64,000 nt of DNA, from positions 1,615,001 through 1,679,000 of the forward strand of contig NZ_AP024154.1 of assembly GCF_015533855.1 (NCBI RefSeq). The letters are read 5' to 3'. Positions 22,767 to 64,000 of the stretch are shown here, piece by piece. Under the pieces are notes generated by a model that made no database searches, was not told where the DNA came from, and saw nothing but the letters and a program-made list of their open reading frames with translations. Origin of the DNA: Echinicola sp. 20G. Its GTDB lineage: Bacteria > Bacteroidota > Bacteroidia > Cytophagales > Cyclobacteriaceae. How positions within the stretch are numbered: position 1 is the first letter of the stretch; the number at the start of each line of letters is the position of its first letter. Made by a program: the position numbers and the translations under genes.

Positions 22767-23411
22767 ATGATGGGTAATACTTTTGAGATGAACAAAACAA
22801 ATAAAAAGATGCAAAATTTAGCTTTAGGTCAAAGGGTGAAAAATCTCCGAGCGACCGCCTGTTTATCTCAAGAGGAATTAGCTGAAATTTCTCAAATTAG
22901 CTTGAGAACTGTTCAAAGATTGGAAATAGGCGCTACCACTCCTCGTGGGGATACGCTGAAGCGTTTGGCTTCCGCATTGAAGGTTACACCGGATGACCTT
23001 TTTGATTGGCAGACGGAAGAAGATAAAGGTTTTCTTAAGTTAATGAATTTAGGGAGTTTGGGTTTTTTATTTTTCCCTGTTTTGGGAATAGTTATTCCAT
23101 TGGTCTTGTGGATAAAAAAAATGGACTCTGTCCAGTTTGCCAAAGAGGTGGGGAAATCAATTTTAAATTTTCAAATCACTTGGTGTGTTTTATATTATGG
23201 AATGAAATTGTTGGTGTGGGCTATAACGATTGTTTATAGTAGACATATGGATGAGATTTCGATCAGCTATTATCAAACTATATATTATTACCGGATAGCT
23301 TTTTTATTAGTTTTTTATGGTTATAACATTCTAATGATACTAATGAATACTCTTTTTATTCATAATGATAAAAAGGTGTGGTATAAGCCTGTCATACGCT
23401 TTTTGAAATAG
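22767..23411 (+). CDS. XRE-family HTH regulator with C-terminal membrane domain
   Basis: 214 residues. Cro/CI-type HTH at about 20-78 (LRATACLSQEELAEISQISL with RTVQRLEIG as recognition region), then several hydrophobic segments (about 92-210) of the DUF4870-like kind, including the conserved LNFQITW. A membrane-tethered one-component regulator is the simplest reading. Alternative starts are ATGs at 22770, 22788 and 22809; the last gives an N-terminus like that of the related fusion protein at 61407-63158. Stand-alone gene. Its upstream TGAC/TGTCG boxes suggest autoregulation. Confidence 0.8.
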   Translation: MMGNTFEMNKTNKKMQNLALGQRVKNLRATACLSQEELAEISQISLRTVQRLEIGATTPRGDTLKRLASALKVTPDDLFDWQTEEDKGFLKLMNLGSLGFLFFPVLGIVIPLVLWIKKMDSVQFAKEVGKSILNFQITWCVLYYGMKLLVWAITIVYSRHMDEISISYYQTIYYYRIAFLLVFYGYNILMILMNTLFIHNDKKVWYKPVIRFLK

Positions 23412-61406: not shown

Positions 61407-63158
61407 TCATTGATAAGGAATGAAACCGTACCACTCCCATGGGCTGTATTGGTCGGCCATGGCGTAGGAGAATAGGGCTTGGTAAATGCTTTCCCCATTA
61501 TCTGAATTGGTCATGATCATCAATCCCTTTCCGCTATCGGGATAAAGTATGGCATGATGCTGAAAGCCATCGCCATGGCCTCCTTTGGCCACACCTTTGC
61601 CATAGGGTGTTTCTAGGTAACTCCATCCCAAGCCATAGCTAAAGTTAATATTGGCGTATTTGTCTGTGTTTTGGGCCGACTTGGGACCAAATTGATGAAC
61701 TGAACGAATCCGGATCTGAGGGGAGAAAATCTCATCATATGATGCAGGGCTGAGTATTTCTTGGTTGAGGACAGCGGTTAAAAATTTGATATAATCTGCC
61801 GCGGTAGTTTCCAAGGTACTCCCCGACCTGGGTTCATTGTCTTTGTCTTTTTGATAGGTTTCTCCATTCTTCTGGTGGCCATAGGCAAAGTCACTTTCAA
61901 ATCGGAACTGCCACTGGTAGGAAGAGTTTTTCATGCCCAGGGGCTTAAAGACATATTCTTGTGCCAATTCTTCCAGCCCTTTTCCTGTCAGCTTTTCCAA
62001 AATGACCTGCAGATAGACAAACCCTTCTCCACTGTAGCGGTATTTTTCTCCTGGTTTCCCATGAACTTGTAATTTCATATCTGGCTCCATAAATCTCCAA
62101 TTGGCAAAACCCGAAGTATGGGACAAGCACATCCTTGCCGTGATCTGATGGTACAGGGAGTCCTCCTTCAAGTCAGCATAATCATCATGCCACCGGGTCA
62201 TAGGTTCATAATCATATATTTTTTGAGGCAAGTAAGATTCCAGCGGAGTATCCAAGTCGATAAGACCTTCTTCTACCAGTTTCATAACCAAGATACTAAA
62301 CACCGCCTTGCTCAGGGAGGCGCCATAAATATTGGTAGAGTCGGTGAGTATTAGCTTTTGGGGAAAATCTTTGTAGCCAATTACTTTTTGGTAAACGGGT
62401 TTTTTATCATTGAAAATGGCCACGGCCATTCCATGTATCTCTGCTTCTTGGGCCCACTGGTGGAGTTTTAGGGTGAGGGAATCCTCAGAAATTTTACTTC
62501 CATCTAACCTTTCGATCTCTTGGGAAGTCTTATGGGTACAGCCTAATACGGAAAGCACTGAAAAGGATATTACTACGAGTTTGGTGACAGTGGATTTCTT
62601 CAATTTCAAAAAGGGGATGGATAGGGGATAATAGCATTTGTCTTTTTTGACCACATAGATGATGTTGCAGATTACAATGCCCACTAATATGGGAACAGTG
62701 GATATAAACAGGAAAAATCCCCATTTTTCGATGGTCACTAGGCTGATAAAAGATAAAGTTGCGAGTAGGATGGCGGTAATCTGGAAGTTGATGACCTTGA
62801 CCCCATGCCTGTCATAGATGGGATTGTCATCTCTCTTGTGAATCCAAATAAAGAGAGGAAGGAGGACATTGCACAAAGGAATAAATACACCCAATAAGGG
62901 AGTGGAATGCAACAGCAAAAGCCATTTTTTCTTTAAGGTTTCCTCCTTAGGGTCATTTAAGGGGATCAATTGGTTGACTTCGATCTCCAAAGCTACTGCA
63001 AGTAGCTTGATGGTATTTAGATGGGGTTTCACTTCAGATTTTTCGATACGCTGTATGGTCCGCACAGTAACCTCTGTTTTTAGGGCCAATTCTTCCTGAG
63101 ATAAACCTTTGCTTTTTCTGTAGTAGATAAGCCTTTCGGCAAATGATTGATTGTTCAT
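61407..63158 (-). CDS. Fusion: XRE HTH + DUF4870-like membrane domain + serine beta-lactamase-fold domain
   Basis: 583 residues from ATG 63158 (MNNQSFAERL); the longer frame upstream is not conserved in type. HTH at 7-62 (SQEELALKTEVTVRTIQRIEK). Hydrophobic segments at about 80-106, 123-143 and 147-170 with the DUF4870 strings IHKRDD and INFQITA. A further helix at 192-206 after KLKKSTVTK ends in a lipobox-like LSVLGC. The hydrolase domain (about 225-583) has Ser281-x-x-Lys284 (SLSK), Tyr375-Ser-Gly and HGDG at 528-531, so the class C/AmpH-type active site looks complete. Predicted topology puts the HTH inside and the hydrolase outside. Transmembrane sensor, or simple gene fusion; see findings. 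Confidence 0.82.
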   Translation of the reverse strand: MNNQSFAERLIYYRKSKGLSQEELALKTEVTVRTIQRIEKSEVKPHLNTIKLLAVALEIEVNQLIPLNDPKEETLKKKWLLLLHSTPLLGVFIPLCNVLLPLFIWIHKRDDNPIYDRHGVKVINFQITAILLATLSFISLVTIEKWGFFLFISTVPILVGIVICNIIYVVKKDKCYYPLSIPFLKLKKSTVTKLVVISFSVLSVLGCTHKTSQEIERLDGSKISEDSLTLKLHQWAQEAEIHGMAVAIFNDKKPVYQKVIGYKDFPQKLILTDSTNIYGASLSKAVFSILVMKLVEEGLIDLDTPLESYLPQKIYDYEPMTRWHDDYADLKEDSLYHQITARMCLSHTSGFANWRFMEPDMKLQVHGKPGEKYRYSGEGFVYLQVILEKLTGKGLEELAQEYVFKPLGMKNSSYQWQFRFESDFAYGHQKNGETYQKDKDNEPRSGSTLETTAADYIKFLTAVLNQEILSPASYDEIFSPQIRIRSVHQFGPKSAQNTDKYANINFSYGLGWSYLETPYGKGVAKGGHGDGFQHHAILYPDSGKGLMIMTNSDNGESIYQALFSYAMADQYSPWEWYGFIPYQ

Positions 63159-63462
63159 TTGTTTTCGTTTTGCTGATGAAGCAAATGTATCCAAGATCCC
63201 TTGCCATTTCCCCGACATTTAGATGTCATGTTTCTGTCATTGTCTTGAAATTCATGGTGTTAGAAGGGTAAATTATAAAAATCAAATGGTTTATTGAAAC
63301 GAGGGAGCAGCTAAAAAGTGAGAAGGGTTAATTAGAATTGGCCTTTGGAATCACTTTTATCTAAGGACCAGGGGGAACGGGCGATTAAATTCAGCAGAGT
63401 TTATTAAGGTTGAAATGGTAAAAAATATTTCAGGTTAGTTTTTGGCTTAAAAATGACGGCTT
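63159..63462. other. Intergenic region with operator of the fusion gene
   Basis: About 300 bp between the two hydrolase genes. It holds the TGAC/TGTCG boxes at 63213-63239. I see no further gene or hairpin in the rest. Confidence 0.6.
63213..63239 (-). promoter_or_regulatory. Putative operator of the HTH-beta-lactamase fusion gene
   Basis: On the minus strand: TGACA at 63239-63235, TGACA at 63228-63224, then TGTCG at 63217-63213. The second TGAC and TGTCG stand 7 nt apart, as upstream of the regulator at 22767. It lies 55-80 bp before the start codon. Confidence 0.55.
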
Positions 63463-64000
63463 TTAATTATCATAAGGAATGAAGTTTTCCCAATACCAAG
63501 GCATCCAATGGTCTCCCATGGAAATTTCGAGTAGTTCTTTAAATATTCCTTCCCCATTGGAACTGTTACACATAATGATCAATCCTAAATTTTTTGTGGG
63601 ATAAAAGATGGCATAATGCTCCCAGCCGTCCATGTGACCTTCTTTAAATACTGCTTTTCCATAGGGTGTCTGGTAGATGCCCCAACCCAAGCCATAACTT
63701 AAGTCAATAGCAGCATTTTCGTCGGTGACCTTCCATCTGTTCTCCCCAAATTGTTGTTTGGACTTAATGGCAATTTGGGAAGTAAACATTTCTTCAAATG
63801 CAGAAGAACTCAGCCCTTTTCTGGCCAACATCGCTTGAATAAACTTTGCATAATCTTCAGGGGTGGTGTCCATGCTTCCGGCCGCATACTCTTGATCCCT
63901 TTTTCTTCTTTCGAGAACTTTTTTCTTCTTATAGTGCCCAACGGCGTAGTTACCTTCAAAGCGATCTTGCCATAAGAAACTGGTCATGTTCATTTCAAGC
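63463..64000 (-). CDS. Serine beta-lactamase-fold hydrolase, 5' end beyond window edge
   Basis: Only the C-terminal 178 codons are seen; the frame is open to position 64000 (LEMNMTSFLWQDRFEGNYAVGH). It lines up with the end of the neighbouring fusion protein: SYGLGWGIYQTPYGK against SYGLGWSYLETPYGK, KEGHMDGWEHYAIFYP against KGGHGDGFQHHAILYP, and the shared last residues NFIPY/GFIPY. A tandem paralogue. Whether it also has the HTH and membrane part cannot be seen. Confidence 0.85.
   Translation of the reverse strand, partial: LEMNMTSFLWQDRFEGNYAVGHYKKKKVLERRKRDQEYAAGSMDTTPEDYAKFIQAMLARKGLSSSAFEEMFTSQIAIKSKQQFGENRWKVTDENAAIDLSYGLGWGIYQTPYGKAVFKEGHMDGWEHYAIFYPTKNLGLIIMCNSSNGEGIFKELLEISMGDHWMPWYWENFIPYDN

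Follow-up and report, generated by a model that had tools for sequence, protein, structure and literature searches.

An XRE-HOTT regulator and a serine hydrolase in one reading frame of Echinicola sp. 20G: a probable polyprotein with an internal signal peptide and a candidate three-half-site operator

Membrane one-component regulators of the CadC/ToxR type consist of an N-terminal cytoplasmic DNA-binding domain, a membrane helix and an outer C-terminal domain. In BlaR1 and MecR1, with BlaI and MecI, a membrane protein whose outer domain belongs to the serine beta-lactamase/penicillin-binding protein (PBP) superfamily is tied to gene control, and the cytochrome b/c1 precursor FbcH of Bradyrhizobium is a polyprotein parted at an internal signal peptide. 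Here we describe a gene that shares features with each of these, found in a 64,000-nucleotide stretch of Echinicola sp. 20G (NZ_AP024154.1, positions 1,615,001 to 1,679,000; hereafter the window), whose genome is a single contig of 5.8 Mb. The gene (61407..63158, minus strand), delimited from the open reading frame (ORF) list, Pfam and an alignment of homologues, encodes 583 amino acids (aa) in which an XRE helix-turn-helix (HTH), a DUF4870/HOTT membrane domain, a predicted internal signal peptide and a serine hydrolase follow one another, and its product, on the sequence comparisons reported below, is probably cleaved to give a regulator in the inner membrane and an enzyme that is exported.

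As in CadC and ToxR, the DNA-binding domain is N-terminal and cytoplasmic and the C-terminal domain lies outside, but here the former is an XRE domain rather than a winged helix, the membrane part is a multi-helix HOTT domain, the outer part is an enzyme, and a signal-peptidase site should detach it; where the outer domain of CadC/ToxR is attached, this protein, though written in one frame, has a conserved cleavage site at the junction. With BlaR1 and MecR1 it shares the membrane protein, the superfamily of the outer domain and the link to gene control, yet its DNA-binding domain sits in the same chain and its outer domain is of the class C/DD-peptidase type and probably released. An earlier note on this DNA had likened the protein to BlaR1/MecR1 in logic but not in parts, and in parts the comparison indeed has no support: the Pfam scan of the window protein gave no match to peptidase M56, the mark of that group, at E values up to 0.1, and the hydrolase reached 46.5 bits against the 415 asked of a class C beta-lactamase (AmpC) by the equivalog NF033085. 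Like FbcH, the gene would make two proteins as one and part them at an internal signal peptide, but the parts of FbcH are two subunits of one enzyme complex, while here they are a transcription factor and an exported enzyme.

Signal peptidase also takes part in the control of transcription through RsiV and RsiP, according to PMC4183432 and PMC8844934; the likeness to those systems lies in a membrane-bound transcription regulator as signal-peptidase substrate, and the difference in that the released part would here be the enzyme and that sites of both peptidases occur. The HOTT (DUF4870) family is presented in passages of PMC11628618 as relatives of Tic20, and the window protein fits it by score and by a model in which two paired helices and a charged loop are joined by two more helices, whereas those passages name no HTH-bearing or enzyme-fused member and the main text has 0 occurrences of helix-turn-helix. 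Signal peptidase in transcription control and polyproteins parted at internal signal peptides are thus already known; the one-chain regulator and exported enzyme with an exchangeable signal peptidase (SPase) I/II site, and the three-half-site operator, appear to be new. Among the papers listed in our searches, which did not extend to subscription journals and preprints, none describes a chain of transcription factor and exported enzyme with an interchangeable SPase I/II site, or this operator.

The fused protein and its junction

The frame is unbroken, and while the mechanical ORF (61407-63218, 603 aa) is 60 nt longer at its 5' side, we chose the ATG at 63158, which the earlier note had also given and which matches where the homologues begin. 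All features of the gene lie on the minus strand. Three Pfam domains score above their cut-offs: HTH_3 (PF01381, residues 12-61, 62976..63125) with 43.8 bits against 23, which places the N-terminus in the XRE/HTH_3 family; DUF4870 (PF09685, residues 77-184, 62607..62930) with 75 bits against a curated 25, which places the Tic20-like membrane domain, also seen in the AlphaFold model, among the HOTT proteins; and Beta-lactamase (PF00144, residues 238-556, 61491..62447) with 159.8 bits against 27. The combination of XRE, DUF4870 and serine hydrolase that the earlier note had seen in a single frame is therefore borne out, and the same is true of its catalytic motifs and of its topology with the HTH inside and the hydrolase outside, with which the charged loops agree. 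In the alignment of 42 homologues, chosen among the best 120, from which the residue conservation figures for the protein derive, S281 and K284 of the SxxK motif and Y375 of the Y-S-G motif occur in 42 of 42, and His528 of HGDG in 37.

Between the membrane domain and the hydrolase lies the predicted internal signal peptide (residues 185-206, 62541..62606), recognised by junction rules, the alignment and the model, with a basic n-region, an apolar h-region and a lipobox, followed by Cys207 (62538..62540), the predicted lipidated +1 residue after SPase II cleavage. The lipobox-like LSVLGC pointed out earlier is real, and Cys207 is kept in 38 of the 42 homologues. The window gene thus has the lipobox of a lipoprotein after an apolar helix with a basic start, but not the N-terminal position, since the signal peptide is internal (residues 185-207). 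The majority-residue fraction falls to 0.39 over residues 185-202 and 0.34 over 203-206, rises to 0.90 at Cys207, and is 0.74-0.86 in the other membrane segments.

This pattern extends to the fusions at large. We parsed 136 fusions from 275 proteins and applied simple rules to the 32 residues before the hydrolase core: a lipobox was recognised in 119 junctions, an SPase I site with Gln at +1 in 9 and an SPase I match of a looser kind in 3, which left 5 with neither. Gln at +1 is reported, in PMC5837995, for most SPase I substrates in Bacteroidetes. When each segment was shuffled 200 times, the lipobox rule was satisfied by 5.4% and the Gln-type rule by 2.2%. The remaining 8 junctions were judged by eye: Cys stands at the corresponding position in six, as His-Cys in five and as Asp-Ser-Cys in one, and the other two (L017 and P0239) are SPase I-like, which brings the totals to 125 of 136 with Cys (SPase II) and 11 of the SPase I type. 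The shuffling covered these first rules; a looser second rule found a site in 181 of 185 fusions (141 with the hydrolase of the window gene, type 1, and 44 with another PF00144 hydrolase, type 2, described below). We built a tree of 95 hydrolase domains, taking 50 of the 103 kept fusions and 45 of the 96 kept stand-alone proteins (a quick method without bootstrap, site types labelled by hand and P0030 set as SPase I). On it, the junction type switches at least 7 times among the fusions, and there are at least 3 changes between fused and stand-alone state, as many as the starred branches force. In the stand-alone relatives the homologous place is taken by ordinary N-terminal signal peptides, again of both types. 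That a predicted cut site is kept while the peptidase expected to cut it changes would be surprising in a helix serving only as an anchor, and this is our main argument that the chain is processed. From these comparisons we consider an internal, cleavable signal peptide at the junction highly probable.

The AlphaFold2 model, built with 42 sequences, has a mean predicted local distance difference test score (pLDDT) of 80.7 and a predicted template-modelling score (pTM) of 0.64, and is good for the hydrolase and most of the HTH and weaker in the membrane part. It pairs helices 70-92 and 96-106, continues with helices at 114-142 and 146-172, and sets a further helix, 188-205, apart ahead of the hydrolase. 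The best solved structure in Foldseek is the Pyrococcus PBP homologue 2qmi, with AmpC, ClbP and the DD-peptidase R61 in the top 50; a sequence search of solved structures again put 2qmi first and also matched R61 and ClbP. The hydrolase thus has the class C/DD-peptidase fold with SxxK, Y-S-G and H-x-G expected of PF00144 serine hydrolases, and these structural relatives make a D-amino-acid peptidase or an esterase the most likely kind of enzyme. Nothing in the sequence analysis pointed to beta-lactams or peptidoglycan fragments as the signal, and nothing excluded them.

The operator and the reuse of the regulator

Three genomes of the f73 family sample, which we take as Flavobacteriaceae because the junctions of L068, L070 and L071 are identical to those of proteins named for Flavobacteriaceae bacterium F89, Robertkochia and Aquimarina, match the window protein only to about residue 216, in frames of 659-675 aa. 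These are the type-2 fusions, in which the same HTH-HOTT unit and a lipobox are followed by a different PF00144 hydrolase. Among the best 120 homologues of one type-2 protein 45 carry DUF4870, and most of the others are hydrolases of about 463 aa that stand alone and are mostly lipoprotein-like; from the Cys onward, fused junctions and the N-termini of the stand-alone lipoproteins are alike. In four genomes the regulator is not fused at all, being a complete protein of 188-189 aa that ends right before the signal-peptide position and stands behind the same operator. On a tree of 60 rows made from the headers, as we call the HTH-HOTT units, these units split from 8 other XRE-DUF4870 rows (two of them one gene) at 98/99, and the type-2 and the unfused units each form one clade. 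The outgroup branches are long and the bootstrap is unsettled, which leaves the root uncertain.

In four genomes (L137, L139, L141 and L144) a membrane protein gene comes after the lone regulator in the same direction, which at L137 and L141 matches Rce1-like PF02517 in a scan and at L139 and L144 resembles that of L137 by eye. These four loci are candidates, from gene order, for an operon of regulator and CAAX protease behind the same operator. A PF02517 gene also stands directly before the unfused regulator in G411, and at L067 the gene beside the unfused XRE-HOTT regulator matches PF02517 in the scan. In the cases seen, the neighbour of the regulator is an exported hydrolase if fused and a membrane protease if unfused.

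Upstream of the window gene, pattern scans and alignment revealed the candidate operator ATGACAGAAACATGACATCTAAATGTCG (63213..63240, minus strand), made up of two half-sites in direct repeat at a distance of 11 bp and a third in inverted orientation, an instance of the pattern ATGACA-N5-RTGACA-N5-ATGTCR common to the upstream regions of fusions. The predicted -7 box TACATTTG (63182..63189, minus strand) follows 23 nt after it, as identified by alignment and by the TAnnTTTG consensus, which passages of PMC9723704 place at -12 to -5 in Flavobacterium psychrophilum; the operator would therefore cover about -36 to -63. We aligned 32 loci (26 type-1 fusions including that of the window, 2 of type 2 and 4 unfused regulators, leaving aside L067, which has no operator, and L096, which nearly duplicates L095). 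The half-site letters are conserved at 0.97-1.00 except at the two R positions; TAnnTTT lies exactly 23 nt past the operator in 30 of 32 loci (22 nt in L094, no match to the rule in L016), and the operator ends 46-57 nt ahead of the start codon in 29 of 32, the start-codon rule having picked a different ATG in L069 and found no start in L087 or L141.

The site is also rare. The strict pattern occurs in 26 of the 397 f73 genomes, once in each, and its reversed control in 0; 18 of the 26 sites stand ahead of type-1 fusions, 3 ahead of type-2 fusions, 4 ahead of unfused regulators and 1 at a decayed copy. The other 3 of the 21 type-1 fusions in f73 have sites with one or more deviations. At L140 (G485), the regulator gene is decayed and the operator is still intact. 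In the phylum sample (n=395) the strict pattern was found in 2 genomes, the window's own and one with a further fusion, and in the window's genome the site at 63213-63240 is the sole match even at one mismatch of a looser pattern. Allowing up to one mismatch, the looser pattern gave 34 matches in a set of 26 genomes, 25 of which have one match at the header gene (25 matches). One of the 9 extra matches is the G659 site on the other strand, and the surroundings of five were inspected (L099, L109, L123, L124 and L126); since the reversed control also gives 9, chance suffices for them, and we reject a larger regulon, bearing in mind that weaker sites would escape the scan. The sites at L109 and L123, in two genomes, have three direct half-sites each and are flanked by the same two kinds of gene, and the G456 site (C24:896621), judged by its letters, has the same form; those of L109 and L123 may be an unrelated element or a second target of the regulator.

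Because the strict pattern stands once per genome and always ahead of this regulator, it suggests a self-regulating factor with about one target. The conserved operator at the gene's own promoter suggests sequence-specific DNA binding by the HTH, and autoregulation of the gene by its own HTH appears very likely to us. As to the sign, we lean slightly towards activation, since the site would lie at about -36 to -63 and few promoters have, by eye, a TTG near -33.

Distribution and origin of the fusion

Our protein search scored 7996 candidates, 2105 of them at E <= 0.001, of which the best 120 (one being the window's own protein) align over 98-100% of the query with at least 63% identity. HTH_3, DUF4870 and PF00144 are present together in all 120, so that the possibility of a lone fusion or a sequencing-error junction, raised in the earlier note, is rejected.

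The fusion is nevertheless far from universal. The full type-1 form was found in 21 of the 397 f73 genomes, in Christiangramia lutea, Marinigracilibium pacificum, Mangrovivirga halotolerans and Marivirga sericea, and, in the class sample (n=395, E <= 1e-60) and, among the matches listed, in the relatives sample (n=59, with 10 others of the genus), only in the window's own genome. Universal presence was accordingly rejected, and the patchy distribution makes a horizontal gain in the window's genome plausible. DUF4870 as such is found in 105 of 120 f73 genomes surveyed, in proteins that are short among the matches listed.

That the gene arose by joining a membrane regulator to a lipoprotein hydrolase, as had been proposed, is supported in the form of a membrane regulator joined to an exported-hydrolase gene including its signal peptide. 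We checked by eye ten loci of close stand-alone hydrolases (L019-L022, L024, L025 and L053-L056), and an XRE-DUF4870 gene lies directly upstream only in L053, whose regulator falls outside the header clade on the header tree; split-gene ('Rosetta') support is weak in this set, which left out 15 further stand-alone loci (L057-L066 and L089-L093). By eye, no conserved operon partner was seen at the fusion loci L015-L018 or at the window's gene.

Directly upstream of the window gene and in the same direction, a stand-alone secreted hydrolase paralogue of 397 aa (63463-64000, minus strand, running past the window end; L022:4463-5656) has 43% identity to the hydrolase and an ordinary signal peptide; a homologue with 75% identity to it occurs in G007, a genome from the same genus in which the full fusion was not found. 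Another XRE-DUF4870-like gene (22767-23411, plus strand, 214 aa), outside the header clade, follows a dehydrogenase-like gene. Among the relatives, L087 (G664) is a fusion with a broken HTH frame, L024 (G023) has its hydrolase split across two frames, and P0282 (809 aa), real or an assembly chimera, has the regulator followed by two PF00144 stretches.

A processed polyprotein and its alternatives

We consider it rather probable that the whole is a self-contained regulator-plus-enzyme circuit written as one polyprotein and parted after synthesis. The chain would insert into the inner membrane, where the helix after HOTT would act as an internal Sec export signal and not as a permanent anchor. 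Signal peptidase II (in the window gene and most relatives examined) or I (in several relatives) would cut after the signal peptide, so that the serine hydrolase would reach the periplasm or outer membrane as a lipoprotein or in soluble form, while the regulator would stay behind in the inner membrane together with the signal-peptide helix. XRE and HOTT would together be a complete inner-membrane transcription factor that acts from the membrane at its own promoter, binding the three-half-site operator there and little or nothing else, with the signal perhaps sensed by a partner or by the HOTT domain, a candidate sensor.

The earlier note had instead proposed an uncleaved one-component transmembrane sensor, in which the hydrolase binds a cell-wall ligand and signals via the membrane helices to the attached HTH. 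Such a sensor would suit the single frame, the topology, the maintenance of the fusion in many genera and the conserved catalytic residues, but it does not account for an SPase II or I site that is kept at the junction of nearly every fusion examined while the surrounding helix drifts, nor for a site that switches type with its cleavability retained, and it is further opposed by the complete 188-189 aa regulator that stands alone behind the same operator and by the fusion of the same regulator to a second hydrolase family whose stand-alone members are mostly lipoprotein-like. We therefore regard a permanently attached sensor as improbable. Separate synthesis of the hydrolase from an internal start codon ahead of the signal peptide would make cleavage of the fusion unneeded, and TTG codons do occur just ahead of the signal peptide in the window gene; no ATG, GTG or TTG is conserved there in 24 loci, however, and in 14 of the 24 none occurs in the 11 codons counted from the residue that follows the PF motif, the codon of that residue itself being TTG in only 3 of 24. 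We rejected this start as not conserved, and its probability seems to us very small.

Cleavage itself might also be the switch, if precursor and cut regulator differed in activity and so read out export or signal-peptidase processing. It can be argued for this that regulator and cleavage site share one chain in the fusions examined, that signal peptidase is the site-1 protease for the anti-sigma factors RsiV and RsiP (PMC4183432 and PMC8844934), and that HOTT proteins are relatives of Tic20, those of the magnetosome being connected with protein targeting (passages of PMC11628618). But the interchange of SPase I and II sites makes a sensor of one peptidase unlikely, the sites look ordinary and constitutive, and such a site is missing from the unfused regulators that stand behind the same operator, so that we hold this switch to be unlikely. 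Export-coupled transcription factors, in which the enzyme that the XRE-HOTT unit controls travels as its cargo behind an internal signal peptide, and transcription of the single target gene depends on how far that cargo has been processed or exported, seem to us unlikely as well; uncut versus cut cargo, or a Tic20-like HOTT engaging the signal peptide, would be read, and it is just as doubtful that one gene measures its own secretion in this way.

Several points weigh against the processed polyprotein that we prefer. If its halves act apart, an operon would suffice, yet the fusion has been kept in many genera, and the link may therefore matter at some stage. Cleavage, lipidation and DNA binding are all predictions, and the HTH is tied to the operator by co-occurrence only, through patterns written from the same loci on which they were later counted. 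In G411, an unfused regulator of the same clade has no operator genome-wide, even at one mismatch of the looser pattern. The signal-peptide calls follow simple rules written after seeing examples, rather than a trained predictor, and some of the 136 rows are one protein from two sources, so that the cases are not all independent. Four of the 185 fusions fail the second rule: by eye P0100 and P0259 have Cys, P0239 has an SPase I-like site, and P0274, the weakest case, has a weak site only. P0030 and P0034 are ambiguous between the two site types.

If the proposed circuit is true, gene control would here take a compact form: regulator and product would be synthesised in a one-to-one ratio, and the regulator would serve about one target. 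A group of uncharacterised HOTT regulators gains a defined operator, so that their signal becomes testable, and the likely controlled products form a short list of two exported hydrolase families and Rce1-like membrane proteases. It is also a warning that a protein annotated as no more than a 'serine hydrolase', or taken for a fused sensor, may be a polyprotein that is processed.
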